From contig JAKSIZ010000008.1 of the NCBI GenBank assembly GCA_024398515.1, positions 1 through 60,384 of the forward strand: a DNA stretch of 60,384 nucleotides, given 5' to 3'. This document shows positions 18,378 through 33,137 of this stretch, one piece after another; positions within the stretch are counted from its first letter, which is position 1, and each line of letters begins with the position of its first letter. The DNA comes from Bacteroidaceae bacterium. GTDB taxonomy: Bacteria; Bacteroidota; Bacteroidia; Bacteroidales; Bacteroidaceae. The position numbers and the translations under genes were made by a program. A model generated the notes under the pieces. It had not been told where the DNA came from. It saw nothing but the letters and a program-made list of their open reading frames with translations, and did not search any database.

Positions 18378-18472
18378 CCCACAGCGCTTGCATTTCCCTA
18401 TACAAACGCTTGAATTCAGAAGAATCTACTATAGTTTTTCACCGAACAAACCATACCCCTTCACAATACGTT

Positions 18473-18566: not shown

Positions 18567-18569
18567 TCT

Positions 18570-19580
18570 CTATGATTGATTAGTGAGAAGGTCGCAAACT
18601 TCATCGAGGATTGAAGAAAGTTCTTCGTATGTTTCGGCACGAAGCATGCGTATTCTTGTCTCGCGGAAATTAGGTATTCCCTTGAACACTGGCGTTGAGG
18701 CGAGGTGTCGGCGAGTGTGGAGTATGCCGCGGTATTCGTCGATTCGCTCAACGTTGATGCGAAGGAGTTCCTTGAGGATTGCAATCTTTTCGGCTACGGT
18801 AAAGCCGGAATCTCCGGAAATCTCAGGTTTCACGGAGTCCCCAGAGGAGAGATAATCCCTCACGTCGCGGAAGAGCCACGGCTGTCCGAACGTTGCACGG
18901 CCTATCATCACGGCATCGACTCCGTAGCGTTCGAACATCATTCGTGCCTGTTCGGGCGTTGTGACGTCACCGTTGCCTATAACGGGTATGCGCATCCTTG
19001 GGTTTCGCTTCACCTCGCCGATAAGCCTCCAGTCGGCAGGACCAGTGTACATCTGCGACCGTGTACGCCCATGAATGGTCAGTGCCTGAATGCCGCAGTC
19101 CTGAAGTTGTTCTGCCAAATCGACTATGATTTGGTGTTCGTTGTCCCATCCCAAGCGTGTCTTCACGGTGACGGGAATGTTGACCGCTTTCACCACTTCG
19201 CGTGTTATTTCGAGCATCAAAGGTATGTTTTGCAGCATTCCTGCGCCTGCACCTTTCGATGCAACCTTTTTCACAGGGCATCCAAAGTTGATGTCGATGA
19301 CGTCGGGATGCACCTCGGCGACAACTTTTGCCGCTTCAACCATCGAATCTACGCTCTTGCCATAGATCTGAATACCCACCGGTCGTTCCGATTCATTGAT
19401 TTGAAACTTGCTGATTGTGCTGCGAACACTGCGTATTACAGCGTCGGCATTGACAAATTCAGTGTAAACCATCGAGGCACCATAACGCTTACAGAGCATA
19501 CGGAAACCTATGTCGGTGACATCTTCCATCGGTGCCAGGAACACTGGAAACGGCTCAAATTCTATATTTCCTATCTTCAT
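18570..19580 (-). CDS. dusB: tRNA-dihydrouridine synthase
   Basis: The 336-aa flavoenzyme reduces uridines in tRNA. Signatures: FLAPMEDVTDIGFR at the start of the TIM barrel, NFGCPVKKVASKGAGAGML with the catalytic Cys, VKTRLGWD, IHGRTRSQMYTGPADW and GRATFGQPW for FMN binding. A C-terminal helical domain follows. Length fits the DusB group. The DUF486 gene lies 9 nt upstream and is probably cotranscribed. The long opposite-strand frame over it is a shadow. Confidence 0.93.
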   Translation of the reverse strand: MKIGNIEFEPFPVFLAPMEDVTDIGFRMLCKRYGASMVYTEFVNADAVIRSVRSTISKFQINESERPVGIQIYGKSVDSMVEAAKVVAEVHPDVIDINFGCPVKKVASKGAGAGMLQNIPLMLEITREVVKAVNIPVTVKTRLGWDNEHQIIVDLAEQLQDCGIQALTIHGRTRSQMYTGPADWRLIGEVKRNPRMRIPVIGNGDVTTPEQARMMFERYGVDAVMIGRATFGQPWLFRDVRDYLSSGDSVKPEISGDSGFTVAEKIAILKELLRINVERIDEYRGILHTRRHLASTPVFKGIPNFRETRIRMLRAETYEELSSILDEVCDLLTNQS

Positions 19581-19589
19581 CGCGACCTA

Positions 19590-19967
19590 TCATTTGAGAA
19601 AACAGAAGTAAACAGCAGCGATGAGAAGGCCGAATGCAACGAAGTGATTCCACTGCAAAGACTCACCCTTGAAGAGAAGAGTAGTGAAGAGCACGAACAC
19701 CACAAGCGTCACTACCTCCTGTATAATCTTTAGTTGCATGAGAGTATAAACGCCGCCATTGCCCACGAAACCCATGCGGTTGGCTGGGACTTGGAAACAA
19801 TATTCAACCAGAGCAAGCCCCCAACTGATGAGAATTACTATATATAATGGTGTGTTGTCGGAAAGAACGCCGACTTGCTGAAGCTTGATATGACCATACC
19901 ATGCGAATGTCATGAAGATGTTTGCCACTATCAGAAGCAAAACAGGATATAAATACTGTGTGAACAT
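19590..19967 (-). CDS. DUF486 (DMT-like) small membrane protein
   Basis: The 125-aa protein has four hydrophobic segments and the DUF486 pattern NIFMTFAWYGH, SWGLALVEYCFQVPANR and LKIIQEVVTLVVF. It is related to half-size drug/metabolite transporters; no substrate is known. A TAACTTTG box (20000-19993) lies about 26 nt before the start. Likely in one transcript with dusB. Confidence 0.9.
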   Translation of the reverse strand: MFTQYLYPVLLLIVANIFMTFAWYGHIKLQQVGVLSDNTPLYIVILISWGLALVEYCFQVPANRMGFVGNGGVYTLMQLKIIQEVVTLVVFVLFTTLLFKGESLQWNHFVAFGLLIAAVYFCFLK

Positions 19968-19992
19968 TAGCGATATTTTTGAAAATCCGACG

Positions 19993-20000
19993 CAAAGTTA
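19993..20000 (-). promoter_or_regulatory. -7 box of the DUF486-dusB promoter
   Basis: TAACTTTG on the minus strand just upstream of the DUF486 start. No matching -33 element is seen. Confidence 0.5.
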
Positions 20001-20062
20001 TAAAAAAAATGTAATTATTCCGATATATTTTCTTTTTCTCTTCTTATTTACGTAAAATTTAT

Positions 20063-20070
20063 TATCTTTG
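20063..20070 (+). promoter_or_regulatory. -7 box of the DUF4254 promoter
   Basis: TATCTTTG lies 21 nt before the ATG at 20092; the -33 region is weak. Confidence 0.5.
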
Positions 20071-20091
20071 CAGAAATAAAACTTGAATATT

Positions 20092-20697
20092 ATGACATTT
20101 ACACAAATTTGCGACCCGATTTTCCGTCAGGCAATAGACAATTATCACGTGACTGACAACGTTGACACACCAATTAATAACCCTTTTGAAGAGGGAACAA
20201 TAGAGAACAGACTGTACCTGAAGTGCTGGATTGACACTGTACAATGGCATTTTGAAGACATAATCCGCGACCCGAACATTGACCCTGTTGAGGCTTTGAC
20301 GCTTAAACGTCGCATCGACAAGAGCAATCAGGACCGCACAGATCTCGTTGAACAAATCGACAGTTACTTCCGTGAGAAGTATGCTGACGTGAAGGTTCTC
20401 GACTCGGCAACCATCAACACTGAGAGTCCGGCATGGGCTGTTGACCGACTTTCAATACTGTATCTGAAGATTTATCACATGCAGGAACAGGTTTCGCGCA
20501 CTGATGCTGAGGCTGCACATATACAGAAATGCCAGGCAAAACTTGATGTCCTGCTCGAACAACGCGTTGATCTTTCGTCGGCAATCGACCAACTTTTGGC
20601 AGATATAGAGGACGGAAAGAAGTACATGAAGGTTTATCGGCAGATGAAGATGTACAACGATCCATCGACAAATCCAATCCTTTACCAACAGAAGTGA
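20092..20697 (+). CDS. DUF4254 family protein
   Basis: The 201-aa protein is soluble and mostly helical, rich in charged residues, with no signal peptide. It matches what I recall as DUF4254 (NPFEEGTIENRLYLKCWIDTVQWHFED near the N-terminus; coiled-coil-like C-terminus). I chose ATG 20092 over the upstream TTG at 20083. Its TGA overlaps the GTG start of the glycosyltransferase gene by 4 nt, so the two are translationally coupled. The partner suggests a role in lipopolysaccharide or glycan assembly; the biochemical function is unknown. Confidence 0.85.
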   Translation: MTFTQICDPIFRQAIDNYHVTDNVDTPINNPFEEGTIENRLYLKCWIDTVQWHFEDIIRDPNIDPVEALTLKRRIDKSNQDRTDLVEQIDSYFREKYADVKVLDSATINTESPAWAVDRLSILYLKIYHMQEQVSRTDAEAAHIQKCQAKLDVLLEQRVDLSSAIDQLLADIEDGKKYMKVYRQMKMYNDPSTNPILYQQK

Positions 20698-21683
20698 AGA
20701 CACAACACTTGCTTATAATGCGCTTTTCGGCTATGGGCGACGTTGCAATGACGGTGCCTGTAGTGAAGGCTTTGGCACTGCGATACCCCGATTTGAGGAT
20801 TACAGTGCTTAGCCGACCGTTTGCAAAACCGTTCTTTGAGGGCATCTCACCGAACATCAGCTTTATGGGAGCGGACGTGAAAAACGAGTATAAGCATCTT
20901 TCTGGCTTGAATGAACTTTATCGCCGACTCACGGCAAAGCAGTTTACAGCCGTGGCAGACTTTCATGGCGTGCTGCGGACAGAGTATTTGCGCAGTCGTT
21001 TTATGCTCGATGGCGTGAAGGTAGCGCATATTGACAAGCATCGCAAAGGGCGAAAAAAACTCTGCCGACTGAAGAATAAAGAGATGATAAGGCAGCCTTC
21101 GCCGTTCCAAAACTATGCAGATGTGCTCGCGAAACTGGGCTTTCCTGTTGAATTGAACGCAGGAAAATATCAGTTTTCAGGCATAAAGCATGGCGCAATT
21201 GGCATTGCTCCAACCGCAGCATTCGTAGGGAAATGTTATCCTTTGAGCAAGATGAAGGAGGTTGTTCGCCTATTGTTGCTGAAACATTCGGAGGCTAAAA
21301 TATACGTTTTCGGTGCAAAACAAGACGAAATTGAAGCAATCACACCTGAAACATTTGCCGACAGCGGAAGAATAATCAACGTCAGCAGTGTGGCAAAAGG
21401 CTTGGGCGCAGAGCTGGAACTGATGAAAGAACTCGACGTGATGATTAGCATGGACAGTGCAAACATGCACTTTGCATCGCTCGTTGGTGTGCCTGTAATC
21501 AGTATCTGGGGGCAAACTCATCCATTCGCAGGCTTTATGGGATGGGGACAAAGTGAGGAAAACGCCATTCAATTAAACGAATCTTGCCGACCATGCAGCA
21601 TATTCGGCAACAAGAAATGCCCTTTCGGCGACTATCATTGCATCGCTTCCATCGCCCCAGAACAGATAGTTGAACGCATCTGA
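20694..21683 (+). CDS. Glycosyltransferase family 9 (heptosyltransferase-like)
   Basis: The 329-aa protein starts with GTG overlapping the preceding stop. It has the GT9 N-terminal motif LLIMRFSAMGDVAMTVPVVKAL, a central KYPL/IAPTAAF region, and the C-terminal donor-site pattern SMDSANMHFASLVGVPVISIWGQTHP. GT9 enzymes add heptose or related sugars to the lipopolysaccharide core at the cytoplasmic face. The acceptor here is not known. A 31-nt gap separates it from the GH105 gene. Confidence 0.92.
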   Translation: MKTQHLLIMRFSAMGDVAMTVPVVKALALRYPDLRITVLSRPFAKPFFEGISPNISFMGADVKNEYKHLSGLNELYRRLTAKQFTAVADFHGVLRTEYLRSRFMLDGVKVAHIDKHRKGRKKLCRLKNKEMIRQPSPFQNYADVLAKLGFPVELNAGKYQFSGIKHGAIGIAPTAAFVGKCYPLSKMKEVVRLLLLKHSEAKIYVFGAKQDEIEAITPETFADSGRIINVSSVAKGLGAELELMKELDVMISMDSANMHFASLVGVPVISIWGQTHPFAGFMGWGQSEENAIQLNESCRPCSIFGNKKCPFGDYHCIASIAPEQIVERI

Positions 21684-21714
21684 AACACGATAAAAACTAT
21701 ATATAATATTAATA

Positions 21715-23148
21715 ATGAATAGGAGAACCATCACATTCGCATTGGCAATCTTTGGTTTTTACCAACTTACACTGGCGCAAAAGAAAGTCATCAACGACAT
21801 CAATACGCCTTTACACTTAATGCAGCCGAACTATGAAACGCCGTATAAAGTGCCCGACGTGCAGGATGTAAAGGCCGACATAGACCGTGTCTTAAGCTTT
21901 ATGGCGCAGTCTATGCCAACAAAAGGCGACAGCAGCTCAACGGCTGGCCGCTTGCACAAAGGAGTTTACGACGACTGCAATAAACTTCCAGTGGGTGCAT
22001 TCCGACTGACATCATACGAGGCTGGAGTGCTCTACAATGCCACTCTTTGTGCTGCAAAAGCAACGGGCGACAATAATTATATGACGTTTGCCGCCGACCG
22101 ACTCAACCTTATTGCCAATCTTGCACCACGCTCAATAAAAGGATTCCAGACCGATAAGAACTACGATTCGCAGATGCGACCAGTCGTAAATCCACAGGCT
22201 CTCGACGATGCAGGAGCAATGTGCGCAGCATTCATACGCCTTCAACTCAGCAACACATCATCGGCTTGCCGCTTGCACAAAGCGCAAAAGTGCGACTGCA
22301 AGAAAGCTGATAAGGCCGTAAAAGAAGTGATAGAACGCTATGCCGACTACGTCATGAACAAGCAAATGCGCCTTAATGACGGCTTATTGGCACGCAATCG
22401 CCCACACAAAAACTCCGTTTGGCTCGACGATATGTACATGGGAATTCCTTGTTTAGCATGGTATGGAAGGCTCACGGGCAACACAAAATATTACGATGAA
22501 GCCCTTCGACAGTTGCGATTATTCAAGCAACGCATGTGGGTACCGGAGCAAAAACTCTTCCGCCACGGATGGATTGAAGCCATGAATCCTCACCCTTGTT
22601 TCCCTTGGGGAAGGGCTAACGGATGGGCAATCCTCACAATGTGCGAGGTGCTTGATGCCATTCCAACCGATTACCCAGGGCGTGAAGAAGTGCTCGACCT
22701 GCTTCGTCAACACATAGAAGGACTGTGTGCCGTGCAGGACAAGACTGGTTTCTGGCATCAACTCTTGGACAGAAACGACACATATCTTGAGACTTCAGCC
22801 ACTGCAATCTTCACTTATTGCATGTCACACGCCATTTGTGAAGGATGGATTGATGCTCTTGCATACGGTTCGCAGACGCTTCAAGGCTGGCAAGCCACGG
22901 CTACAAAAATCAACAATCAAGGTCAAGTGGAGGGCACTTGCGTAGGTTCCGGCATGGGATTCGACGCTGCTTTCTACAGTTATCGACCTGTTCACGTTAT
23001 GGCTTTGCACGGCTATGGTCCGGTGATTTGGGCTGGTTCGGAGGTCATCAGGATGCTCAACGCCACCCATCCTAAGTTTAACGATTCGGCAATTCATTTC
23101 TATTCTACGCCTCAAACCACCCCTTCGCCTATCTTCAACGAACAATAG
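21715..23148 (+). CDS. Glycoside hydrolase family 105, unsaturated rhamnogalacturonyl hydrolase-like
   Basis: The 477-aa protein has a signal peptide (1-21, ending LAQ). The (alpha/alpha)6-barrel signatures of GH105 follow: LPVGAFRLTSYEAGVLYN, SVWLDDMYMGIPCLAW (catalytic Asp), WGRANGWAI and CVGSGMGFD. These enzymes remove unsaturated uronic acid from lyase products of pectin. Residues about 183-197 (ACRLHKAQKCDCKK) are encoded by a palindromic repeat in frame, and a shorter relative lies at 21947-21962 (GRLHKG). It stands outside any SusC/SusD locus, followed by an AGCS transporter gene 13 nt downstream. Confidence 0.88.
   Translation: MNRRTITFALAIFGFYQLTLAQKKVINDINTPLHLMQPNYETPYKVPDVQDVKADIDRVLSFMAQSMPTKGDSSSTAGRLHKGVYDDCNKLPVGAFRLTSYEAGVLYNATLCAAKATGDNNYMTFAADRLNLIANLAPRSIKGFQTDKNYDSQMRPVVNPQALDDAGAMCAAFIRLQLSNTSSACRLHKAQKCDCKKADKAVKEVIERYADYVMNKQMRLNDGLLARNRPHKNSVWLDDMYMGIPCLAWYGRLTGNTKYYDEALRQLRLFKQRMWVPEQKLFRHGWIEAMNPHPCFPWGRANGWAILTMCEVLDAIPTDYPGREEVLDLLRQHIEGLCAVQDKTGFWHQLLDRNDTYLETSATAIFTYCMSHAICEGWIDALAYGSQTLQGWQATATKINNQGQVEGTCVGSGMGFDAAFYSYRPVHVMALHGYGPVIWAGSEVIRMLNATHPKFNDSAIHFYSTPQTTPSPIFNEQ
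22261..22302. repeat. In-frame palindromic repeat inside the GH105 gene
   Basis: The core 22272-22302 begins CTTGCACAAAGCG and ends GCGACTGCAAG, so its ends pair. The complement of 24945-24971, in the ompH upstream region, has the same sequence with a 4-base shorter loop. The preceding 22 bases (22261-22282) match 25013-25034 with one mismatch. A shorter match (GCCGCTTGCACAAAG) lies in the same gene at 21947. It encodes about 14 extra residues without a frameshift. Confidence 0.75.
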
Positions 23149-23161
23149 TATTCATTATAAT

Positions 23162-24517
23162 ATGGATTGGATCCACGATTTCCTGACGCAAGCAAACGGT
23201 ATATTATGGGGTTGGCCCATGATAATCCTCCTTCTTGGCACCCATTTGTTTCTCACCATAAGGCTGAAACTCCCACAAAGATACATCTTCCAAGCCATTA
23301 AGTTGAGCATGAAGAAAGACGTAAGCAGCAGCGGCGACGTCAGTCAACTCGGCGCACTTGCCACTGCTCTTGCCGCAACAATAGGCACAGGAAACATCGT
23401 AGGCGTAGCTACAGCCGTCGCACTTGGCGGTCCTGGTGCCGTACTTTGGTGCTGGTTGACGGGTGTATTGGGCATTGCAACCAAGTACAGCGAGGCATTG
23501 CTTGCCGTGAAATATAGGGTAAAAGACGAGAAAACGGGCCGTACTTTCGGTGGACCTATGCTTGTTCTTGAGCGTGGACTGCACTTGAAATGGCTCGGAA
23601 TCATCTTTGCCGTGCTCACAACCGTCACTTCTCTCGGCATCGGATGCTCGGTACAATCCAACTCCATCTCGCTCCTGATGAACGAAACCTTCGACATTCC
23701 CTTCGTTACAACAGGCATTGTGCTGGCAATCCTCGCAGCCACCGTACTCATCGGAGGCGTTAAGGTTATAGCAAAAGTATGCACATTCTTCGTGCCGTTC
23801 ATGGCTTTCTTCTACATCGTCGGCTGCTTATACATCCTCTGCATAAACCATGAATTCCTCGGCGAGGCGCTTATTCTCATCGGCAAATGCGCATTCACGC
23901 CGACGGCAGCAACGGGTGGATTTATCGGAGGAGGCATTATGATTGCCATGCGCTACGGTATTGCCCGCGGACTTTTCTCGAACGAATCTGGTCTCGGCTC
24001 TGCTCCTATCGTTGCAGCTACGGCAAAGACTCGCAACCCTGTACGCCAAGCATTGGTATCGGCAAGCGGCACATTCTGGGACACTGTCGTCATCTGTGCC
24101 CTCACAGGACTGGTCATCGTCAGCAGTGTGATAGCATATCCCGACATAAGCATCGATGATGGTGCCACACTGACAAAGCTTTGCTTCGACAAGATTCCAT
24201 ACGTAGGCTCGCCACTTCTCGCATTCGGCATCCTCACCTTTGCCTTCAGCACCATCCTCGGATGGAGTTACTACGGCAAGAGTGCCATGTGGTACTTGTT
24301 CGGCAAAAAGGGAACAACCATCTACCTCATCGTCTATGTCGTATGCCTTTTCATTGGAAGTATCGTCAGCCTTAACCTCATCTGGGACATTGCCGACACA
24401 ATGAATGCGCTGATGGCGATACCAAACCTCATCTCGCTTCTCTTCTTGAGCGGAGTGATAGTCAGTGAGACTCGAAAGTTTCTCTGGTCGAACCGCCTCG
24501 ACGAAAAGGAAGAATAA
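23162..24517 (+). CDS. AGCS family sodium:amino acid (alanine/glycine) symporter
   Basis: The 451-aa inner-membrane protein has about eleven hydrophobic segments and the AGCS signatures ATIGTGNIVGVATAVALGGPG, WLTGVLGIATKYSEA and GLFSNESGLGSAPI. It should import a small amino acid with sodium. It lies 13 nt after the GH105 gene and is probably in the same transcript; the functional link is not obvious. Confidence 0.94.
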   Translation: MDWIHDFLTQANGILWGWPMIILLLGTHLFLTIRLKLPQRYIFQAIKLSMKKDVSSSGDVSQLGALATALAATIGTGNIVGVATAVALGGPGAVLWCWLTGVLGIATKYSEALLAVKYRVKDEKTGRTFGGPMLVLERGLHLKWLGIIFAVLTTVTSLGIGCSVQSNSISLLMNETFDIPFVTTGIVLAILAATVLIGGVKVIAKVCTFFVPFMAFFYIVGCLYILCINHEFLGEALILIGKCAFTPTAATGGFIGGGIMIAMRYGIARGLFSNESGLGSAPIVAATAKTRNPVRQALVSASGTFWDTVVICALTGLVIVSSVIAYPDISIDDGATLTKLCFDKIPYVGSPLLAFGILTFAFSTILGWSYYGKSAMWYLFGKKGTTIYLIVYVVCLFIGSIVSLNLIWDIADTMNALMAIPNLISLLFLSGVIVSETRKFLWSNRLDEKEE

Positions 24518-24614
24518 CCCCCACTACACACATAGTGCAAACCGTTTCGTAGCATAGTTTCAGTCCATGCGACGCTTATCTTTGCGCGACTTGAACGTTA
24601 TGCCTTCCCGAGAC

Positions 24615-24716
24615 GAACGCTTGACTCGGAAAAACATTGCAGCAATGTTGGTCCGAACATTGCAGCAATGTTGACTCGAACATTGGAGCAATGTTTGAAC
24701 GACTTTAACGCTCAAC
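24615..24716 (+). repeat. Triple-palindrome intergenic element, AACATTGCWGCAATGTT type (copy 1)
   Basis: Seventeen-bp palindromes AACATTGCAGCAATGTT, the same again, and AACATTGGAGCAATGTT start at 24633, 24656 and 24679 (23-bp period), with 6-bp spacers GGTCCG and GACTCG. Borders are GAACGCTTGACTC (24615-24627) and GACTTTAACGCTCAAC (24701-24716). Confidence 0.85.
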
Positions 24717-24902
24717 CCAAGAAACGCAAACGTTCGTGTCGTTGAATTCAACCGAAAGACTACAACATTGGTTGCGGTTGGCTGAGCATACAGCAATACC
24801 GAATCGCATCGCGTAATAACGCTCCGGAGGAGCAATAAGCCATCAGCCCAGGGCCCTGGGCTAATAGGTATAAGCCTTTCAGGCTATAATTTAGCGGACA
24901 AT

Positions 24903-24944
24903 AAGCAAAAAACTTTGTTTTTTTCTTTGTATTGTCTTCGATTT
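24903..24944 (+). repeat. 42-bp direct repeat, copy 1
   Basis: Identical over 42 bases to 25078-25119 (contains AACTTTGTTTTTTTC and GTATTGTCTTCGATTT). This upstream copy lacks a following -7 box. Confidence 0.85.
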
Positions 24945-24971
24945 CTTGCAGTCGCTTTCGCTTTGTGCAAG
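24945..24971. repeat. Intergenic copy of the GH105 palindromic repeat
   Basis: CTTGCAGTCGC at one end and GCTTTGTGCAAG at the other; the complement is the same sequence as 22272-22302 apart from a 4-base shorter loop. It directly follows the first 42-bp repeat. Confidence 0.75.
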
Positions 24972-25077
24972 CGTCCAAAGGACGATAAGCACTAACGTTG
25001 GCTACGCCGTTATCGGCTTGCCGCTTTCACAAAGGGCTTGCCCGACTGAAAGAAATTAGGCGGCATCTCAACAATAA

Positions 25078-25119
25078 AAGCAAAAAACTTTGTTTTTTTC
25101 TTTGTATTGTCTTCGATTT
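25078..25119 (+). repeat. 42-bp direct repeat, copy 2 (carries the -33 box of ompH)
   Basis: Perfect copy of 24903-24944, 175 bp downstream of it. The TTTG at 25101-25104 within this copy is the -33 element of the ompH promoter. Confidence 0.85.
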
Positions 25120-25131
25120 GCACTAACTTTG
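25101..25131 (+). promoter_or_regulatory. Consensus promoter of ompH-murI
   Basis: TTTG (25101-25104), exactly 19 nt, TAACTTTG (25124-25131). The match to the Bacteroidetes consensus is perfect. It places transcription start near 25138 and shows that the ompH start is ATG 25152, not an earlier in-frame codon. Confidence 0.85.
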
Positions 25132-25151
25132 CCAAAAATTTAGATTTGGTT

Positions 25152-25655
25152 ATGAGAAAGGTTATTTTATCAACATTGTTTTTAGTTTGCAGCATGGGCA
25201 TCGCCCAAGCTCAACGCTCGTTCGGATATTTCAGTTACGACAACCTCCTGAAGGCTATGCCTGGCTATGAGGAAGCACAAGCATCGTTGGCAGAACTCAA
25301 AGAGAAGTACGACGCCGAGACAAAACGCGTCGAAGCCGACTTCAACAGTAAATACGAGGAGTTTCTCGAAGGACAGAAGGAGTTTCCATCCATCATCCTG
25401 CAAAAGCGACAGACTGAACTGCAGGAAATGATGGAGAAGAACGTCACCTTCAAGCGTGAGGCACGACGACTCTACAAGCAAGCCGAAGATGAAGCAATGG
25501 CTCCAATCAAGGCAAAGCTCGACGAGGCAATCGCTGCCATTGGCACTGCAAAGAAGTATGACTTCATATTGAACACCGACTCGAATGCTTGTCCGTGGGT
25601 AAACAAAAACAAGGGCGACGACATCACAAACGAGATACTGAAGAAAGTTAAATAG
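25152..25655 (+). CDS. ompH: OmpH/Skp family periplasmic chaperone
   Basis: The 167-aa protein has a signal peptide (1-20, ending AQAQ) and then a long charged coiled-coil region, the two-arm Skp architecture: start GYFSYDNLLKAMPGYEEA, end KKYDFILNTDSNACPWVN. It holds unfolded outer-membrane proteins in the periplasm. Start set by the promoter. murI follows after 4 nt. From memory, Bacteroidetes usually place ompH-like genes after bamA; here bamA is not in the window and a repeat-rich gap lies upstream. Confidence 0.92.
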   Translation: MRKVILSTLFLVCSMGIAQAQRSFGYFSYDNLLKAMPGYEEAQASLAELKEKYDAETKRVEADFNSKYEEFLEGQKEFPSIILQKRQTELQEMMEKNVTFKREARRLYKQAEDEAMAPIKAKLDEAIAAIGTAKKYDFILNTDSNACPWVNKNKGDDITNEILKKVK

Positions 25656-25659
25656 GGCA

Positions 25660-26478
25660 ATGGGTCCGATAGGCTTCTTTGATTCGGGTTACGGAGGGCT
25701 TACTGTCATGCAGAAATGCAGGGCAATGATGCCGGAGTATGACTATCTGTACCTCGGCGACAATGCCCGTGCACCATACGGATCACGCTCGTTCGAGATA
25801 GTATATCAGTTCACCCGTGAGGCAGTAAAGGCGTTGTTCGACATGGGTTGCAGCCTCGTCATCGTGGCTTGCAACACTGCTTCAGCCAAAGCCTTGCGCA
25901 CAATTCAGCAGAATGATCTGCCCAAGTGGGACCCGTCGAAACGTGTTCTCGGAGTAATCAGACCAACGGCTGAGGTGATAGGAACGCTCACCGAGACACG
26001 TCATATAGGCGTTGTTGCCACACCAGGAACCATACTTTCCAACTCATACAACCTCGAAATAGCCAAACTTTACCCTGACATAGTGGTAAACGGAGAGCCT
26101 TGTCCGCTGTGGGCACCTATCGTCGAGAGCAACGAATGCGATAGCGAAGGGGCAGAATACTTCGTGTGGAAGAACCTGAAAAGCCTCTTCGGCAGGGATC
26201 CAATGATTGATACCATCGTACTTGGATGCACACATTACCCTCTGCTGATAAAGCAAATAGAGAAGCATGTGCCCGAAGGAACGCGGATTGTACCGCAGGG
26301 AGAACTCGTTGCAACGAGCCTGAAAGACTATCTCATGCGTCATCCGGAGATAGACAACCGCTGCTCAAAGCACGCGACATGCCAGTATCTGACCACCGAA
26401 AGCCCCGAAAAGTTCCGCGAATGTGCAAGGATTTTCATTCATGAAGACGTCGAAGTAAAGAAGTATGAACTATCTTAA
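25660..26478 (+). CDS. murI: Glutamate racemase
   Basis: The 272-aa enzyme makes D-glutamate for peptidoglycan. It has GFFDSGYGGLTV at the N-terminus, the first catalytic Cys in VACNTASA (about 72) and the second in LGCTHYPLL (about 188). Cotranscribed with ompH (4-nt gap); the vanZ-like gene overlaps its end by 14 nt. Confidence 0.96.
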   Translation: MGPIGFFDSGYGGLTVMQKCRAMMPEYDYLYLGDNARAPYGSRSFEIVYQFTREAVKALFDMGCSLVIVACNTASAKALRTIQQNDLPKWDPSKRVLGVIRPTAEVIGTLTETRHIGVVATPGTILSNSYNLEIAKLYPDIVVNGEPCPLWAPIVESNECDSEGAEYFVWKNLKSLFGRDPMIDTIVLGCTHYPLLIKQIEKHVPEGTRIVPQGELVATSLKDYLMRHPEIDNRCSKHATCQYLTTESPEKFRECARIFIHEDVEVKKYELS

Positions 26479-26869
26479 ACACCTCATAAAGTGTTATCCC
26501 GTCAGTTCCATATACATACTTTTTATATGGATACTGTCGCTTTCGCCTTTCATTCCCGTTTCTGGATTGGAAGGAGTGCCGTTCATCGACAAGTGGACAC
26601 ACTTCGTGATGTATGGCGGAACGTGCCTCACAATATGGATTGAATACCTGCGCCGGCACACGAAACGCAATTGGAAACGCATAGCATTGCTTGCCGTCAT
26701 CGCACCAATACTGATGAGTGGACTGCTCGAACTGCTTCAGGAATACTGCACTGGCGGTCATCGAAGCGGAGAATGGCTCGACTTTGCAGCCAATAGCACA
26801 GGCGTTTTGCTTGCAGCAATCGTAGGAATCGTACTCGCAAAGTTCATCCACAGCAAGCAAAAAGCATAG
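26465..26869 (+). CDS. VanZ-like family membrane protein
   Basis: The 134-aa protein has four membrane segments and the VanZ-like pattern FIDKWTHFVMYGG and ELLQEYCTGGHRSGEWLDFAANSTGVLLA. VanZ relatives are small inner-membrane proteins of unclear role, some linked to glycopeptide tolerance; no resistance function should be inferred. The start overlaps the murI end. Confidence 0.88.
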   Translation: MNYLKHLIKCYPVSSIYILFIWILSLSPFIPVSGLEGVPFIDKWTHFVMYGGTCLTIWIEYLRRHTKRNWKRIALLAVIAPILMSGLLELLQEYCTGGHRSGEWLDFAANSTGVLLAAIVGIVLAKFIHSKQKA

Positions 26870-26907
26870 AAAAAAGCATATACAAACATTTACATTTAAT
26901 TAATATT

Positions 26908-27606
26908 ATGAAGGAAAAAGTTATTTCTTCGGCTATTATTGCCGCTGGTATTATCATTCTTGGCCTTTGCATAAAGGGCGGTATCGACAATTTCGTAAAT
27001 AAAGACCGACAGGTTACAGTGAAAGGACTTGCCGAAGTTGAAGTCATGGCAGACAAGGTGACGTGGCCTGTGCAGACAAAGATAATGGGCAATGACCTGC
27101 CAAGTCTATACGCTGAGGCATCGTCAAAGCAGCAAACCATAAAAAGTTTCTTCATGCACAACGGCTTAAAAGAGGATGAAATCATGTTGGGAGTATCAAC
27201 AGTCAACGACCTCGAAGCAAACGAATGGAGCGAAAACAAGAAGGGATACCGTTATATCGTAACATCGAACATGACCGTAACTTCAACCAATGTTGAGCTT
27301 GTGCGCAGTCTTATCAACAGGCAAAGCGAGATGCTGAAGCAAGGCATTGCGTTCAGCAACGACTACAACTCAATGCCTATCTACGAGTTCATAGCGTTCA
27401 AGGAGAAGAAGGCAGAGATGATGAAAGACGCGATAACCAATGCCCAGAAGACGGCAGAACAGTTTGCCGAGAACTCGCACAGCACGATAAACAAGATTGT
27501 GAAAGCCGACCAAGGGCAGTTCTCAATAGACAATTCAAGCGAGACGACGCCTTGGGTGAAGAAGATAAGAGTGGTAACGACGGTGACCTATTCGCTGAAA
27601 GACTAA
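26908..27606 (+). CDS. SIMPL domain (DUF541) protein
   Basis: The 232-aa protein has an N-terminal membrane anchor (about 4-22) followed by a SIMPL/DUF541 domain (DRQVTVKGLAEVEVMADKVTWPV, then the KAEMMKDAITNAQKTAEQFAE helix). Relatives are periplasmic or membrane-anchored proteins of poorly known role, some linked to stress. It lies between vanZ-like and priA, 4 nt before priA. Confidence 0.88.
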   Translation: MKEKVISSAIIAAGIIILGLCIKGGIDNFVNKDRQVTVKGLAEVEVMADKVTWPVQTKIMGNDLPSLYAEASSKQQTIKSFFMHNGLKEDEIMLGVSTVNDLEANEWSENKKGYRYIVTSNMTVTSTNVELVRSLINRQSEMLKQGIAFSNDYNSMPIYEFIAFKEKKAEMMKDAITNAQKTAEQFAENSHSTINKIVKADQGQFSIDNSSETTPWVKKIRVVTTVTYSLKD

Positions 27607-27610
27607 ACCG

Positions 27611-29962
27611 ATGTACGTCGATGTCATACTTCCTGTGCCTCTGAACAGCACGTTTACATACTTGCTGCCTGATGGTATGCCGCATGTAGAACGTGGCATG
27701 AGGGTTCTTGTTCCGTTCGGAAAGACCAAGACCTACATAGGAATTGTGGCTGGATGCAGAGCCTCCTCACTGCTCCCCAAAGGAGGAGGAGTGAATGGAA
27801 ATCTATCATCCCCCCTTGTGGAGACAGAGGGGGGCTCGTCTTTTACGATAAAACCAATCATCGAAGTGCTCGACAAGAAGCCTTCGGTCACTGAAAATCA
27901 ATTCAGGATTTGGCAGTGGATTTCCGAGTATTACATCGCTCCTATGGGTGATGTGTATAAGGCTGCAATGCCATCAAGGCTGAAAATTGAGGACAATTAT
28001 AAGCCGAAGACCGAGGTTTGTGTGCGACTTGCAACGAAACTTCTCGACGGAAAGACACAGCATCTGGCACTCGAAACCCTTGCTCGCGCCAAATCACAGC
28101 ATAAGGCTTTGAGCGTTTTAATTGAAGCCCCCTCCCTGCTCCCCCAAGGGGGAGTGAATAGTATCCTTTCATCCCCCCTTGGGGGGAACGAGGGGGGCTC
28201 TCTCACTCGCGATGAACTCATCAACCTTTCAGGCACAAATACGACTATCGTAAAGCAGTTGGCAGACAAGGGATTCATTGAAATTTATGAACGTGAGGTT
28301 GGCCGACTGAACACTCAGGCGCAGTATAACCCCGAAGCAATCAATCCCCTCAACGGACATCAGCAGAAGGCTTACGAAGAAATAAAGGAAAGTTTCGGTA
28401 AGCATAACGTCACACTGCTGCATGGCGTAACGTCGAGTGGCAAGACGGAGATATACATCCACCTGATAAAAGAGCAAATAGAACAAGGGCGACAGGTGTT
28501 GTATCTGCTGCCGGAAATAGCCCTGACGGTGCAGATAATGCAACGACTGCAACGAGTCTTCGGCAAGCGCTTGGGCATTTATCATTCGAAGTATTCCGAT
28601 GCAGAGCGTGTGGAAGTGTGGCAGAAGCAATTGTCGGACAAGCCTTTTGATGTCATTCTTGGTGTGCGTTCATCTGTATTCCTGCCATTCAACAACCTCG
28701 GATTGGTGATTATCGACGAAGAGCACGAGACTTCATACAAACAACAAGACCCATCGCCACGCTATCATGCACGCAGTGTAGCCATCATGTTGGCGCAGAT
28801 GTATGGAGCAAAAACGCTTCTCGGCACTGCAACTCCGTCAATGGAAAGCATGTATAACGCCAAGATGGGCAAGTTCGGAATGGTGACATTAAGTGTGCGC
28901 CACAAGAACATCAACCTGCCCGAGATATGTGTGGTCGATGTAAAAGACCTGCAAAGGCGCAAGATTATGCGTACTCCATTCTCGCCTCTGCTTACGGAAA
29001 GCATTCGCGAGGCACTTGCAAACGGAGAACAAGTGATACTTTTCCAAAACCGGCGAGGGTTCAATTCGATGATTGAATGCAAGGACTGCGGATGGGTGCC
29101 GAAATGTTCATCGTGCGACGTGAGCCTTACATACCACAAAAGTGCCGACATTATGAGTTGTCACTACTGTGGACACACGTACCGCATACCAGAGAAATGC
29201 CCTGTCTGTGGCAGCAAGCATCTTCGTGGCAAAGGAATTGGAACGGAGAAAATAGAAGAATATGTGCATGAGTTGTTTCCTGAAGCACGTGTTGCTCGAA
29301 TGGATTTAGACACAACCCGCTCAAGAACTGCATACGAAAGGATCATATCAGACTTCTCGTCGGGGCAAACAAATATGCTCATCGGCACACAAATGATAAG
29401 CAAAGGCTTGGACTTTGACCGTGTAAGCGTGGTGGGAATCATCGATGCCGACACCATGCTTAACTATCCTGACTTCCGTGCTTACGAGCAGGCATTCATG
29501 ATGATGACGCAGGTCAGCGGCCGTGCTGGCAGAAAGGAAAAGCAGGGGAAAGTGATATTGCAGACAAAAAATGCCGACCTTCAGCTGATACAACAGGTTG
29601 TCGGCAACGATTACAAGGCGTTCTTCGAGGCGACATTAAGCGAAAGGCAGCTGTTCCATTACCCGCCTTTCCACCATATTATATATATATATGTAAAGCA
29701 TCGTCAAGTTGATGCGGCAGAGAAGGCAAGTTATGAACTCGCGGAAAAGCTTCGTCGCTCACTCGGTGAACGTGTGCTCGGACCAGACAAACCTGCCGTC
29801 GCAAAGGTTCAGGCACTTCATATAAGGAAGATAATGCTGAAACTTGAGAACAGACTTTCGCTTGCCACAGTGCGGAAGGCAATACTTTCTGCCCAAGACG
29901 AACTGCTGCAATCAAACCATTATCCGAGCCTGCAGATATACTACGACGTTGATCCACTATAG
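27611..29962 (+). CDS. priA: Primosomal protein N' (replication restart helicase) with two repeat-derived insertions
   Basis: The 783-aa protein restarts stalled replication forks. Its 3'-end-binding N-terminal domain is followed by a DEAH-type helicase: Walker A GVTSSGKTE near 273-281 and Walker B IIDEEHE. A zinc domain follows with eight Cys (CKDCGWVPKCSSC and CHYC, CPVC), then GTQMISKGLDF and QVSGRAGR. Two segments have no counterpart that I recall in other PriA proteins: residues 51-76 (SSLLPKGGG to EGGSS) and about 172-197 (APSLLPQGGV to NEGGS). They resemble each other and are encoded by copies of the palindromic element also found at 13485-13560. Both lie in the N-terminal part, away from the helicase core, and both keep the frame. 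Confidence 0.96.
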   Translation: MYVDVILPVPLNSTFTYLLPDGMPHVERGMRVLVPFGKTKTYIGIVAGCRASSLLPKGGGVNGNLSSPLVETEGGSSFTIKPIIEVLDKKPSVTENQFRIWQWISEYYIAPMGDVYKAAMPSRLKIEDNYKPKTEVCVRLATKLLDGKTQHLALETLARAKSQHKALSVLIEAPSLLPQGGVNSILSSPLGGNEGGSLTRDELINLSGTNTTIVKQLADKGFIEIYEREVGRLNTQAQYNPEAINPLNGHQQKAYEEIKESFGKHNVTLLHGVTSSGKTEIYIHLIKEQIEQGRQVLYLLPEIALTVQIMQRLQRVFGKRLGIYHSKYSDAERVEVWQKQLSDKPFDVILGVRSSVFLPFNNLGLVIIDEEHETSYKQQDPSPRYHARSVAIMLAQMYGAKTLLGTATPSMESMYNAKMGKFGMVTLSVRHKNINLPEICVVDVKDLQRRKIMRTPFSPLLTESIREALANGEQVILFQNRRGFNSMIECKDCGWVPKCSSCDVSLTYHKSADIMSCHYCGHTYRIPEKCPVCGSKHLRGKGIGTEKIEEYVHELFPEARVARMDLDTTRSRTAYERIISDFSSGQTNMLIGTQMISKGLDFDRVSVVGIIDADTMLNYPDFRAYEQAFMMMTQVSGRAGRKEKQGKVILQTKNADLQLIQQVVGNDYKAFFEATLSERQLFHYPPFHHIIYIYVKHRQVDAAEKASYELAEKLRRSLGERVLGPDKPAVAKVQALHIRKIMLKLENRLSLATVRKAILSAQDELLQSNHYPSLQIYYDVDPL
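27759..27837 (+). repeat. In-frame palindromic element in priA, copy 1
   Basis: The 79-bp segment runs from GAGCCTCC to GGGGGGCTC with inner palindromes around CCCCAAAGGAGG and CCCCCCTTGTGGAG. It encodes residues 51-76 of PriA. Sequence and layout match 13485-13560 and 28126-28199, with more divergence than copy 2, suggesting it is older. Confidence 0.85.
28126..28199 (+). repeat. In-frame palindromic element in priA, copy 2
   Basis: The 74-bp segment has ends AGCCCCCT and AGGGGGGCT and inner palindromes CTCCCCCAAGGGGGAG and CCCCCCTTGGGGGG. The stretch CTCCCCCAAGGGGGAGTGA is identical to the intergenic copy at 13500. It encodes about residues 172-197. Confidence 0.87.
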
Positions 29963-29969
29963 AAAACAA

Positions 29970-30010
29970 TTCGGGATGGCTTCACTTGAAACCATCCCGA
30001 ACTTCTTTTT
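29970..30010. terminator. Bidirectional terminator between priA and the small GW gene
   Basis: TTCGGGATGG (29970-29979) pairs with CCATCCCGAA (29992-30001). A T-rich run follows on the plus strand (30003-30010) and a shorter one on the minus strand. It serves both convergent units. Confidence 0.88.
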
Positions 30011-30034
30011 ATGCTTTTGGTTCACGGCATATTA

Positions 30035-30190
30035 TTACCATCCCCAACGGCCATCCATTTCTAAAATTTCAAACTTAGATGCACCTTCAAGGTTATCTTC
30101 TGGTTTATTGTCAATTGAAGCATCAATCATTTGCAGGCACTCAACTGAAAGCATTATTTCCTTTGCCTGTGGCTGAACATATTTCTTCAT
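30035..30190 (-). CDS. Small protein of the 'GW-tail' type (51 aa), downstream of a secreted protein
   Basis: A 51-codon ORF begins at ATG 30190, 15 nt after the stop of the 947-aa secreted protein gene, with AGGAGA 8 nt before the ATG. It starts MKKYVQPQAK, has a hydrophobic stretch around IMLSVECLQMI followed by DAS, then an acidic region and ends RWGW. No signal peptide is evident. Size, N-terminal pattern, Gly-Trp end, 15-nt gap and terminator all parallel the 54-aa gene at 195-359. A peptide precursor cleaved near the Ala-Ser is possible; no modifying enzyme is nearby. Function unknown. Confidence 0.8.
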   Translation of the reverse strand: MKKYVQPQAKEIMLSVECLQMIDASIDNKPEDNLEGASKFEILEMDGRWGW

Positions 30191-30205
30191 AACTTGTTTC
30201 TCCTA

Positions 30206-33049
30206 TTACTTAAAAATGTACTTAACTCCGTTCTTTGTGAACACACCCTTCGTTGGCTGTGCTACTGGCTGACCATTGAGGTTATACCACTGACCAGGGG
30301 CTGTAACCTTCTGCATCAACTCATTGATTGATGTAGGTGTCTCAAGCTCAATTGTGATAGTCTCGCCCTTTGCAGGTAATTCGTCAACATACTTTGCAGG
30401 GTCAATATATGCGCGGTTTGCTGCGATTGAGCAACCAGTTCCGCACTTCTTAACCTTATTGCTGTTAATGATATACTTACCTTCAGCAACGTCTGTGCCT
30501 TCAAGACTTCCAACAAGACCATTGTTGTCAGCCTCTGTCTTAGCCTCAGAAATATATTCTGCAGTGAGTTCTGTAGCAGATGCCTTGAACAGATAACCCT
30601 TACCACCTTCTACCTTTTCAACAGGAGAGAATGTAATTGCAGATATGTTATCGCCATCCTTTGTCATCGAAGAAACTTCGTAAGCCTGTGCACCTTCAAC
30701 AAGTGCATCTGACTCTAAGCAAATAGTACCCAAGTTACCTTCTGCCAAACCTTCGCGAGTATAGTCGTCAAATACTGTTGTTGTTGAATATATTCTTGTA
30801 ACATTGCTCAATGTCACTACAATGTCTGTGAAACGGCAAGCTGCACTTGACATGATGTAGCCAGTCTTATATCCATTCGGAATATTAAGCACTACATCTT
30901 CACCTGCTTCTGTCGTTTTTGCAACAACTAAAGCCTCAGCATTATTATCACATTCGGTACGGAAATATATATCACCTGTATATTGCGCATTGCTTCCATT
31001 GTTTACATCCTTAAGCATTATTGACACAATGTTTGAATTAAAATCAGGAAGCTTAACATAACTTGTTGCAGCGTTTTTTCTGATTTGCATATACTTTACA
31101 CCAGTTTTGCTATATGTCTGTGTACATGCATTATATTCCCAAACATCATTGCCTACCTTAATAGAACCTGTATTATATGAACCAGCAATATATTTAACAA
31201 TGCTGTCATTGCACAGTGTAGCAATTGCCATACCTGTAGAAGAACCTGCAGTAATTGACTTCGAGAATACTGCATACAGGATTGTGTCCTGTGTTACAGG
31301 TGTCTCGTCTGTGAAGTATGTAGGCACTGCTGTACTTGTAGTAAAGGTTTCGTCGGCTGTCCATCCTGCGAACTCCCAGCCTTCTGGTGCTGTAACTTCA
31401 GGAGCATTGGCAATGCATTCGCCTGCATAAACTTCTTCGCCATCTCCAACTTCTTCGCCAAGACTTGTATATATTACGTAGTACTTAGCTGACTCTGCGA
31501 ATGTAGCAGATACTGTTATATTGTAAGCTGGCATTATGAATGAATAGTCAGCTTCATTGTATTCTACATTAGCGCCATTGCTATCAGTGATAGTCAAAGT
31601 TGATAACTCGTAATGTGTTTCTGGTTCTATAGTAAGAGTTACTTTTGTGCCTTCTATAGCAGAGGTAACGTTAGGGGTAACGGTACCATGCTCAATGCCT
31701 TCAGCAACTGTGATTGAGTATTTTGCAGCTGTCACTTCTTCAATGTCATCCTTGCTTCTTGGAGCGATCTCTTTTATTGTGCTGAACTGAATATATACTC
31801 CAGTCACATTATACTTCTTACTCGTATCGAATGTTGGTAATGTCATAAACGTCTTATATGGCAGAATTGAATTAGTGCCATCCGTGAAGTTTGTTCCATC
31901 ATAATTCACACCCTTCAATACTATCACAGCACCTGTATTTAAGCCTGAGAGTTTATCTATTGTTGTTTCTTTAGGCGTTACAGTGCCACCAGTCGTAACA
32001 GTCAAACCTTCTGTCGTTGATGTGATACTTGTTAATTCTGCAGAGCCATTGTACAATTGAAGCGAGCATGTTACTGTTCCACTAAGTATATCTCCTACTT
32101 TGAATCCATGGTCTTTCGCGTATATAATAAATCCGTTTGTTCCGTCTGTTACATAAGCATTACTGCTTGCAACTCCAGAAACCACCCAATTACCAAATTT
32201 GATGGTTGAGCTTGTTGCTGTAGAACCATAGTTGACAGCTGCATCATACATTGATCCTATCGTGTCAAATGGTTTCCCCTTCTGAGTGATGGTTACAACC
32301 TTATCCGTTGCTCCATCGTATTTCAATGTAATATCTGCTGTACGCGCTGCTGTTGTAGTATTTGCTTCTGTTGTAAAAGTAACAGTGTTGTCTGTATATT
32401 CAAAGTTTGAAATCCAATCTGCAGTTGTTGATGCAGAAATAGACTTGCCTTCCACTGGGTTTGAAATACTATAACTTATCGTTCCAGATGTTGCATCAGC
32501 AGCAAGTTCTACGTTTGATGCGTTGATTAAAGGAGTTGAGGAAGAGGATTCATAAGTAAGCGTTATGTCATCAATAACTCTTACGGCACTTGTTCCTGTA
32601 TAATATACACGCACATATACGTTAGAAAAAGCAGTCAAATCAGCTGTCAATTCTTCCCATATGCCTTTTGTAACGTTGTTCATTGTCTTACCTTTTGCAA
32701 CATCCGTCCACTTGGAATTGTCCGATGAAACTTGTATGACAAAATAGGAAGAGGTGTTTGTGTTAGATGAAGTTTTAGTATAATAACAAGTCATGCTTTG
32801 TGGAAATGCTATTGCATTAGCGGTTGCCACATAAGCAGTTGTTACGCCTCCAGTGCTACCAGAGTGTGTACCACTGCGGAAAAATTCCGTAGTACTACTT
32901 ACACTTTTCACCGTCCAATCGGTACAAGAGCTCAACTCTTTTTCAAAATCAAGAGAAATCACGTCTGCTTGTACAGCAGATGTTACTCCGAAGAGGAGTA
33001 GGCATAAGGTCATGAAGACCTTCAAGTTTTGTGTAATTGTTTTTTTCAT
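30206..33049 (-). CDS. Large multidomain secreted protein with BACON and InlB-like repeats
   Basis: The 947-aa protein has a signal peptide (1-28, ending VQA), then a jelly-roll-like N-terminal domain (about 30-165), a BACON domain (about 175-260; WISNFEYTDNTVTFT, TITQKG) and an OB-like domain (about 265-440). A repeat with GTVTPNVTSAIEGTKVTLT follows, then an InlB B-type repeat near 530-590 (WEFAGWTADETF) and a further beta-rich part. The C-terminus contains WYNLNGQPV and ends NGVKYIFK, resembling the type IX sorting domain and the BspA-like protein in this window. BACON and InlB repeats suggest carbohydrate or surface binding; no catalytic domain is recognised. First gene of a unit with the 51-aa gene, driven by a good promoter. 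Confidence 0.85.
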   Translation of the reverse strand: MKKTITQNLKVFMTLCLLLFGVTSAVQADVISLDFEKELSSCTDWTVKSVSSTTEFFRSGTHSGSTGGVTTAYVATANAIAFPQSMTCYYTKTSSNTNTSSYFVIQVSSDNSKWTDVAKGKTMNNVTKGIWEELTADLTAFSNVYVRVYYTGTSAVRVIDDITLTYESSSSTPLINASNVELAADATSGTISYSISNPVEGKSISASTTADWISNFEYTDNTVTFTTEANTTTAARTADITLKYDGATDKVVTITQKGKPFDTIGSMYDAAVNYGSTATSSTIKFGNWVVSGVASSNAYVTDGTNGFIIYAKDHGFKVGDILSGTVTCSLQLYNGSAELTSITSTTEGLTVTTGGTVTPKETTIDKLSGLNTGAVIVLKGVNYDGTNFTDGTNSILPYKTFMTLPTFDTSKKYNVTGVYIQFSTIKEIAPRSKDDIEEVTAAKYSITVAEGIEHGTVTPNVTSAIEGTKVTLTIEPETHYELSTLTITDSNGANVEYNEADYSFIMPAYNITVSATFAESAKYYVIYTSLGEEVGDGEEVYAGECIANAPEVTAPEGWEFAGWTADETFTTSTAVPTYFTDETPVTQDTILYAVFSKSITAGSSTGMAIATLCNDSIVKYIAGSYNTGSIKVGNDVWEYNACTQTYSKTGVKYMQIRKNAATSYVKLPDFNSNIVSIMLKDVNNGSNAQYTGDIYFRTECDNNAEALVVAKTTEAGEDVVLNIPNGYKTGYIMSSAACRFTDIVVTLSNVTRIYSTTTVFDDYTREGLAEGNLGTICLESDALVEGAQAYEVSSMTKDGDNISAITFSPVEKVEGGKGYLFKASATELTAEYISEAKTEADNNGLVGSLEGTDVAEGKYIINSNKVKKCGTGCSIAANRAYIDPAKYVDELPAKGETITIELETPTSINELMQKVTAPGQWYNLNGQPVAQPTKGVFTKNGVKYIFK

Positions 33050-33137
33050 CGTTTTTTTTAATGTTTTTATGTTTAACTAATTATTGAATATATTTTGTCT
33101 TTTTATCTTTTGGGGTATTAATATTATACTTCCGTTG

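Follow-up and report, generated by a model that had tools for sequence, protein, structure and literature searches.

Evenly Spaced Triple Palindromes Anchor the Phase of an 11.0-bp G+C Rhythm in a Bacteroidaceae Genome

Arrays of three palindromes in the genome of a Bacteroidaceae bacterium act as phase anchors: on the stretches of sequence that we read, they set the phase of an 11.0-bp rhythm in G+C content that runs through the neighboring genes. They are also spaced far more evenly than expected by chance. We propose that the triple palindromes are probably evenly dispersed phase anchors at which a putative nucleoprotein fiber is nucleated.

The window, as we call the whole stretch of DNA analyzed (60,384 bp), is contained in a host genome represented by one assembly of 2.65 Mb in 90 contigs (87.8% complete). 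Four contigs of this genome (451 kb), including the window, C34, C1, and C23, were read. The nearest named relatives of the host by priA are Prevotella and its kin, at 55 to 63% protein identity. Of 299 same-genus genomes sampled, the host's own included, 197 gave a match, and the closest rpoB DNA outside the host genome is 78% identical.

A three-unit element in four word families

The first-pass annotation of the window had drawn attention to three loci, each with three exact 17-bp palindromes at a 23-bp period, and all three were confirmed (Table 1). When up to two mismatches were allowed, the unit of these arrays (word A, AACATTG-N3-CAATGTT) had 10 matches in the window, 9 of which were the units themselves, compared with a mean of 0.58 and a maximum of 4 in 100 shuffles. 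The borders quoted for these loci are present; however, they are not separate borders but part of a longer, mirror-symmetric 22-bp pattern that decays outward. A word-free scan accepted any three palindromic dyads 21.5 to 24 bp apart with units alike at 11 or more of 17 positions. Because it demands both palindromes and this degree of likeness, strongly decayed copies would escape it. The scan raised the window total to five triples, those of words B and D having been absent from the earlier annotation, and it gave further triples in C34, C1, and C23. It placed no anchor between 42.4 and 60.4 kb, the region of rpoC, rpoB, and tuf. Past the end of rpoC, at position 47092, a perfect GTGCACCGCGGTGCAC palindrome is followed by a T run and looks like an ordinary terminator.

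Table 1. Triple palindromes and associated patterns in the 60,384-bp window
Feature	Positions	Strand	Basis
Triple palindrome, word B, ACATTCTWAGAATGT x3, 23-bp period	9522..9582	.	Word-free scan
Triple palindrome, word D, AAAGTTGTACAACTTT x3, 22-bp period; middle unit ending ATT	18488..18547	.	Word-free scan
Triple palindrome, word A; centers CAG, CAG, GAG; spacers GGTCCG, GACTCG	24633..24695	.	Exact, 23-bp period
Outer decaying 22-bp pattern, TTGAACGCTTAA-like outer units, ~90 bp each side of the 24633 element	24543..24785	.	Extent from pooled word-A flanks
Triple palindrome, word A	33289..33351	.	Exact, 23-bp period
Triple palindrome, word A	42290..42352	.	Exact, 23-bp period
11.0-bp G+C rhythm, genes and gaps	1..60384	.	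Mean power 4.31 vs median 0.79, periods 9-13, 1100-bp pieces

The four words are interchangeable families that share one layout. The host genome contains 70 exact triples of word A, 25 of word B (ACATTCTWAGAATGT), and 64 of word C (AAACTG-N3-CAGTTT), all with a 23-bp period, and 43 of word D (AAAGTTGTACAACTTT) with a 22-bp period; this total of 202 covers exact triples only, inexact ones being uncounted. No fifth word appeared, as a word-free scan of the larger gaps gave no triples of a new word.

That the element is a defined triple, as had been proposed, was borne out by the genome-wide count. Word A has 216 exact units, 142 adjacent pairs, and 70 exact triples, so that only 6 units and 2 pairs lie outside triples, and the genome-wide list of word-A triples holds no exact four-unit array. 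A single two-unit copy of word A, one unit of which has a changed arm, lies at C1:108541-108581. Triples are therefore the rule, and ones, twos, and fours are not as common.

The arms of the palindromes are nearly invariant. The four contigs hold 42 elements including the two-unit copy; in the 41 triples that remain without it, arm substitutions numbered 0/840 for word A, 0/210 for word B, 2/432 for word C, and 3/168 for word D (5/1650 in total). Word-A spacers, by comparison, agree at a mean of 49% of positions among the 70 copies, and mean flank identity declines from 61% at 1 to 25 bp to 42% at 26 to 50 bp, 36% at 51 to 75 bp, and 29% at 76 to 100 bp. Among pairs of flanks, the 99.9% quantile was 0.80 and the maximum 0.88 at 26 to 50 bp, with single pairs reaching 0.92 at 51 to 75 bp and 0.84 at 76 to 100 bp. 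The 70 word-A cores of 63 bp comprise 58 distinct sequences, one of which is common to 7 copies. The near-invariance of the arms against the divergence of spacers and flanks indicates that the words are maintained while the remainder drifts.

Conservation in the word-A flanks fades outward with a 22-bp period, mirror symmetrically on both sides. Information in the 140 half-flanks of the 70 copies fell from 24.5 bits at 1 to 25 bp to 9.7 (26 to 47 bp), 7.9 (48 to 69 bp), 2.4 (70 to 91 bp), and 0.9 (92 to 113 bp). By eye, outer modules such as GAACGCTTAACTCG, GACCTTTATACTCG, and TCTGTTGGGGGTG are common to different words. Of the border-motif matches in the 451 kb, 36 lie no more than 150 bp from an element and 5 lie farther off. 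The two spacers of a word-A element are not equivalent, since none of the 70 copies has two GGWCC spacers and 67 have at least one GASTC spacer; this nonequivalence gives the element a hidden polarity.

Outside the elements, 127 sixteen-mers are each found at a minimum of three and a maximum of six places, and many of them belong to one internal gene repeat. One such word, AATCGAAGACAATACA, occurs at six places (window 24928 and 25103; C23 53612, 60122, 73671, and 80464). Direct repeats, mostly 138 bp apart, lie at window positions 1290 to 2300 within the reading frame 375 to 2558. The palindrome CTCCCCCAAGGGGGAG occurs at five places (window 13499 and 28139; C34 35890 and 106222; C23 34975), and its copy at window position 28139 falls within the priA reading frame.

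The placement of the elements between genes, also suggested by the first-pass annotation, was upheld with a codon-trained gene caller, by which none of the 70 word-A copies overlaps a called gene. On a cruder list of all ORFs of at least 100 amino acids, 35 of the 42 elements of all words on the four contigs lie outside ORFs and 7 overlap one. The word-A copies occupy 38 codirectional, 20 divergent, and 8 convergent gaps, the other 4 being at contig edges. In the codirectional gaps, element orientation matched the direction of transcription in 21 cases and opposed it in 17, and the polarity derived from the spacers did so in 15 and 16 cases, respectively. Thus, as had been argued, a terminator alone is insufficient, since every gap type is occupied and orientation is independent of the genes. 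The earlier suggestion of an RNA with three hairpins fared less well, because an orientation unrelated to transcription is evidence against an RNA role. An RNA that folds into three hairpins, or into a single long one, and serves as a terminator, processing site, or small RNA would agree with the strong folds predicted for the five window elements (z of -4.6 to -10.5), although such folds are expected of palindromic arrays anyway. With elements in every type of gap, no Rfam match in the window except 4 tRNAs, and a register that extends into genes (see below), we hold such an RNA-level element to be exceedingly unlikely. A terminator or RNA element was accordingly rejected as the main reading on the basis of orientation and gap types.

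Even spacing and the 11.0-bp register

Neighboring exact triples on the same contig, which mix words, are separated by a minimum of 4.6 kb and a median of 9.6 kb (138 gaps). For the 42 elements on the four contigs (451 kb, 38 gaps), the coefficient of variation (CV) of the spacing was 0.34, and no gap was shorter than 4.5 kb. Random placement in non-ORF stretches gave a CV of 1.09 and a mean of 15.4 gaps shorter than 4.5 kb, never fewer than 8. A stricter null model with one element per gap (5000 trials) gave a CV of 0.80, never below 0.50, and a mean of 10.2 such short gaps, never fewer than 2.

A mobile element with target immunity could produce such spacing if REPIN- or MITE-like copies sat in the gaps and blocked insertion within ~5 kb, the four words being four lineages. 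The many copies with species-specific words, the hard minimum gap of 4.6 kb, and the identity of some cores (58 distinct among 70, with one in 7 copies) are in keeping with this explanation. However, the arms are fixed whereas spacers and flanks have diverged, and the MITE-like origin considered in the first-pass annotation found no support in the flanks, where borders are gradual rather than sharp and recent duplicates are lacking. The sole Y1_Tnp match in the genome is partial (28.4 bits against a family cutoff of 23, positions 4 to 71 of 121) and has an internal stop. Furthermore, a mobile element accounts for the spacing but predicts no 11-bp register in neighboring genes. We consider this origin quite improbable.

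Averaging G+C over flanks aligned on the elements revealed a regular rhythm that extends far past the element. Around the 70 word-A elements, the coherence z (maximum, ~8.4) of single 220-bp windows, taken separately to the left and to the right, was 3.6 to 6.1 at distances of 130 bp to 1.67 kb and 2.9 to 4.7 at 1.67 to 2.55 kb, whereas three control sets with anchors displaced by as much as 30 bp gave 0.3 to 1.6. The best period in these flanks was 10.98 to 11.04 bp. Phases on the left and right agree when both are read toward the element, which means that the pattern is mirror symmetric. For the 41 triples of all words on the four contigs, with the period set to 11.008 bp from an earlier fit, z was 6.4 (maximum, 9.06) at 150 to 1250 bp, and none of 1000 sets shifted by up to 200 bp exceeded 2.76. 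Phase locking is alike for words A, B, and C, which lie between -67 and -114 degrees over the first four bins; word D, with only 8 halves and weak z, lies at -34 to -82 degrees.

The register passes from one anchor to the next. Across 36 intervals, with the reference phase fitted on the same anchors, the lock to the left anchor fell from 0.63 to between 0.08 and 0.14 as the lock to the right anchor rose from between 0.03 and 0.05 to 0.60 (0.46 in the last bin), and the hand-over fell at 0.5 to 0.7 of the interval. Along C34, the phase changes at elements, between which it drifts or slips, and the rhythm is weak in places, for example at 20 to 25 kb. Local phases 1100 bp apart correlated at 0.27 to 0.36 in three contigs, compared with -0.02 in 50 kb of Escherichia coli.

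The rhythm extends through coding DNA, where it is carried mainly by synonymous sites. In windows with a coding fraction of 95% or more, the 11.0-bp power was 6.75 for C34, 4.02 for C1, and 5.23 for C23. Synonymous shuffling within genes reduced it to 1.1 to 1.5 (1.2 to 1.5 for C34), and shuffling of codon order reduced it to 0.7 to 1.1. In C34, power was 8.11 at third codon positions versus 1.54 and 1.12 at the others. Around the anchors, at distances of 150 to 2050 bp, GC3 ranged from 0.435 to 0.665 over one cycle. Relative to the anchors, codon positions 1, 2, and 3 had phases of -65, -67, and -66 degrees (z of 4.5, 3.7, and 6.3), and DNA outside ORFs of at least 150 amino acids had a phase of -50 degrees (z of 3.8); the maxima in 200 null sets for these values were 2.2 to 3.2. 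Like phases at all codon positions and outside long ORFs indicate that the register belongs to the DNA rather than to the proteins. Codon structure and amphipathic helices are ruled out as sources of the rhythm by the synonymous shuffling and by the like phases of the three codon positions. An implication is that, in these bacteria, which synonymous codon is used depends in part on how far away the nearest anchor lies.

These data also bear on the possibility that the rhythm is a mutational footprint, left where something stably bound in register protects one side of the helix and thereby skews mutation, with only the anchors under selection. The signal peaks at third codon positions, at which mutations are filtered least; codon positions 1 and 2, with the same phase at lower power, would fit a footprint or selection alike. 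Such a footprint is compatible with the nucleation of a fiber at the anchors, and only as the whole cause of the rhythm do we give it little chance.

The main rival to a nucleated fiber is supercoil organization. As barriers, topoisomerase sites, or sites at loop apices, the elements would then delimit supercoil domains of ~10 kb, and the rhythm would reflect the geometry of pinned, negatively supercoiled DNA, without a continuous fiber. The element spacing of ~10 kb agrees with this reading, as do the mirror symmetry and the hand-over near mid-interval; supercoil domains in E. coli are ~10 kb. A free plectoneme, however, would offer no obvious cause of a rotational register that extends for kilobases to both sides. 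In the accessible portions of the literature, a period of 11 bp has been linked to negative supercoiling (PMC3431218, PMC4132750), but the published signals are ~100 bp long (PMC4132750). On balance, we regard supercoil organization as unlikely to be the explanation.

Arrays and rhythm in related bacteria

The exact pair pattern of word A occurred in 0/99 other relatives, and word A matched no stretch in genome-contig and viral-contig collections, which may leave out near-own-species records. Named species of Prevotella and Hoylesella have arrays of 17-bp palindromes at 22 to 23 bp with other words. Among 32 named priA loci, whose gene order around priA was not conserved, 12 contained 21 arrays, and the five non-Prevotellaceae or unplaced loci contained none. 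Likewise, no array was found in 50 kb of E. coli or in three shuffles of each locus set. At the common threshold, same-genus pieces held 4 arrays in 4/17 loci (20 fetched, with 3 of less than 3 kb dropped), and the pieces nearest by rpoB held 6 arrays in 3/20 loci; an earlier, stricter scan of the same-genus pieces gave no array with a period of 21.5 to 24 bp. The relative genomes G045, G016, and G024 had no array in 100 kb each, and G290 had one.

Some relatives have abundant words of their own, for which the numbers of matches are not element counts because 2 mismatches and overlapping windows were allowed. The Hoylesella loescheii word TTCCA-N7-TGGAA x3 had 320 matches genome-wide and 0 in 11 other genomes. 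The Prevotella histicola word CTTTT-N7-AAAAG x3 had 415 matches (0 to 3 for the reversed control); elsewhere, it had 58 in Prevotella bivia, 35 in Hoylesella saccharolytica, six in oral taxon 376, one in P. conceptionensis, and none in seven others. Over 200 kb of H. loescheii, 12 arrays are built from the main word, and 10 of these have exactly three units. A second, TTGTAGTGnCACTACAA-like word (in L222, L223, and L228, at positions 9565-9700, 34344, and 133865 of the joined 200 kb) is interleaved with TTCCA-N7-TGGAA, and the same minimum spacing is kept. With this word included, there are 15 arrays with a minimum gap of 5.6 kb, none of which lies in an ORF of at least 100 amino acids, and the P value for their evenness was 0.0026 to 0.003 under the stricter null model. 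With 11 of the 15 arrays as anchors, the register had a z of 3.3, compared with a maximum of 2.66 in 500 shifted sets; read at 11.0 bp, it fades within ~2 kb. In Prevotella veroralis, about seven AAGAGTGTTTAACACCCTT-like units at 23 bp (L172:30-200) are followed by AGTTCGCGAACAATT x3 at 22 bp (L172:385-445). Judging from the run of about seven, unit number in relatives is not always three.

The 11.0-bp line itself, read in 1100-bp windows, stood at 3.8 to 6.2 in the host's own contigs, 6.1 in P. histicola, 3.1 in P. bivia, 2.8 in H. loescheii, and 5.49 in G016. It was low in G045 (1.0), G290 (0.95), G024 (0.92), and E. coli (1.6 versus a local median of 1.2). Line and arrays were only moderately associated across 62 relative loci, of which 7 had both, 4 the line only, 12 arrays only, and 39 neither (Fisher P = 0.026); L177 and L253, among the 7, overlap on one contig. 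One of the line-only loci, L193, is from H. saccharolytica, a genome that carries matches to CTTTT-N7-AAAAG x3.

The coupling of anchors and rhythm is imperfect and not strictly one to one, because G016 has a line without arrays and 12 of the 19 array-bearing relative loci are without a clear line. In the 100 kb of G016 (L206 to L210), the line is strong and coherent over more than 1 kb, and no palindrome array was detected; one weak, chance-like candidate came up at low thresholds, and a search for recurring inverted-repeat words gave none. Either the rhythm is possible without this class of anchor or the anchors of G016 look different. We also counted against the anchor reading the array in G290, which comes without a line, the fading register of H. 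loescheii, the weak 20- to 25-kb stretch of C34, the anchor-free rpoC-rpoB-tuf region, and the representation of the host by a single incomplete assembly.

A putative nucleated fiber and comparison with known systems

The two-turn arrays, the conservation of the arms, the mirror symmetry, the hand-over, and the even spacing are jointly covered most simply by nucleation followed by an outward run in a fixed register. We favor cooperative binding of a putative protein on one face of the helix. Each anchor would be a strong, palindromic, sequence-specific putative binding array, its three sites spaced by two helical turns and flanked at greater distance by weaker sites that are partly conserved. 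A DNA-binding complex may be set down at the anchor in a fixed rotational register and may spread or continue symmetrically about halfway to the next anchor on each side, as a nucleation-and-spreading filament or a wrapped fiber that the rhythm would help. The underlying DNA, third codon positions included, would have been adapted to or shaped by this register, with the 11.0-bp G+C rhythm as the result.

We lean slightly toward a broader picture in which the chromosome is tiled by domains of ~10 kb, each centered on an interchangeable anchor that fixes the rotational register of the putative bound fiber. Genes on both sides would be written, largely by synonymous codon choice, to a mirror-symmetric 11.0-bp grid that starts at the nearest anchor, the grids would meet in register slips, and lineages of the Prevotellaceae would keep the layout and change the words. 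It has long been asked why an 11-bp rhythm is found in many bacterial genomes and whether the packing of bacterial DNA follows a defined register. Because the elements set its phase, they provide discrete, deletable handles for testing the rhythm, and they point to a unit of chromosome packing of ~10 kb centered on an anchor.

Dispersed palindromic sites for a chromosome-organizing protein, in some cases with spreading from the site, are familiar from parS-ParB, SlmA, Noc, and MatP. Those sites are single rather than in triple arrays and are not known to be evenly spaced over the chromosome, and we know of no sequence register in the genes that neighbor them. A search by title and abstract of the accessible literature, which excludes most subscription journals and all bioRxiv preprints, yielded no description of elements that set the phase of an 11-bp rhythm, and the four palindrome words did not occur in the accessible papers.

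REP, BIME, and REPIN sequences share with the host elements the occurrence of hundreds of short extragenic palindromes with species-specific words. As described in the accessible parts of PMC2817692 and PMC3733652, REP and REPIN palindromes have a GTAG/GTGG or CGTC tetranucleotide head at one end. No such head lies beside the palindrome in words A to D; GTAG sits centrally in most word-C units and in word-A units with a TAG center. The host elements further differ from what those parts describe in their strict three-unit, two-turn array, in the use of four words under one spacing rule, and in the register in neighboring genes. A cognate RAYT (Y1_Tnp) gene with the repeats on its flanks would be expected for such sequences; no intact one was found in the host assembly, which is 87.8% complete. 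A MITE would have sharp terminal inverted repeats and a target-site duplication; the borders of the host elements show gradual mirror-symmetric decay. The word-A flanks gave no sign of recent, near-identical copies, although some of the 63-bp cores are identical to one another.

Among intergenic repeats described from related bacteria, BrickBuilt and PINSR come nearest, as far as the accessible text of the two reports goes. BrickBuilt, a MITE of Porphyromonas gingivalis, is intergenic and consists of 23-nucleotide tandem repeats without spacers, with a leader and a tail that have small inverted-repeat ends, at 19 places in ATCC 33277 (PMC4596501). The host elements resemble it in their intergenic position and 23-nucleotide unit and differ in having 17-bp palindromes separated by 6-bp spacers and flanks that are variable and degenerate; the accessible part of that report mentions neither even spacing nor a register for BrickBuilt. 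PINSR of Prevotella intermedia is a 188-bp intergenic repeat of unknown function without terminal inverted repeats, with 177 and 184 copies in two strains, and occurs in four species of one clade (PMC4755523). The accessible text allows PINSR to be likened to the host elements by description only and not by consensus sequence.

The rhythm is most closely comparable with the structural code of 10 to 11 bp. In the accessible portions of PMC3431218 and PMC4132750, signals of this period are strongest at third codon positions, have an unclear role, and are strong in some genomes and absent in others; in some genomes, the signal is persistently strong along most of the chromosome (PMC3431218). Those portions describe no fixed starting points of the signal, and the terms Bacteroid- and Prevotella do not occur in the main texts of the two papers. 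The host stretches that we analyzed share with this code a bias of ~11 bp mainly at synonymous sites. Nevertheless, the short (~100 bp), unanchored signal reported in the accessible text of PMC4132750 is not matched by the host rhythm, the line of which is narrow at 11.0 bp and coherent over 1 to 2 kb, with its phase set by discrete repeated elements.
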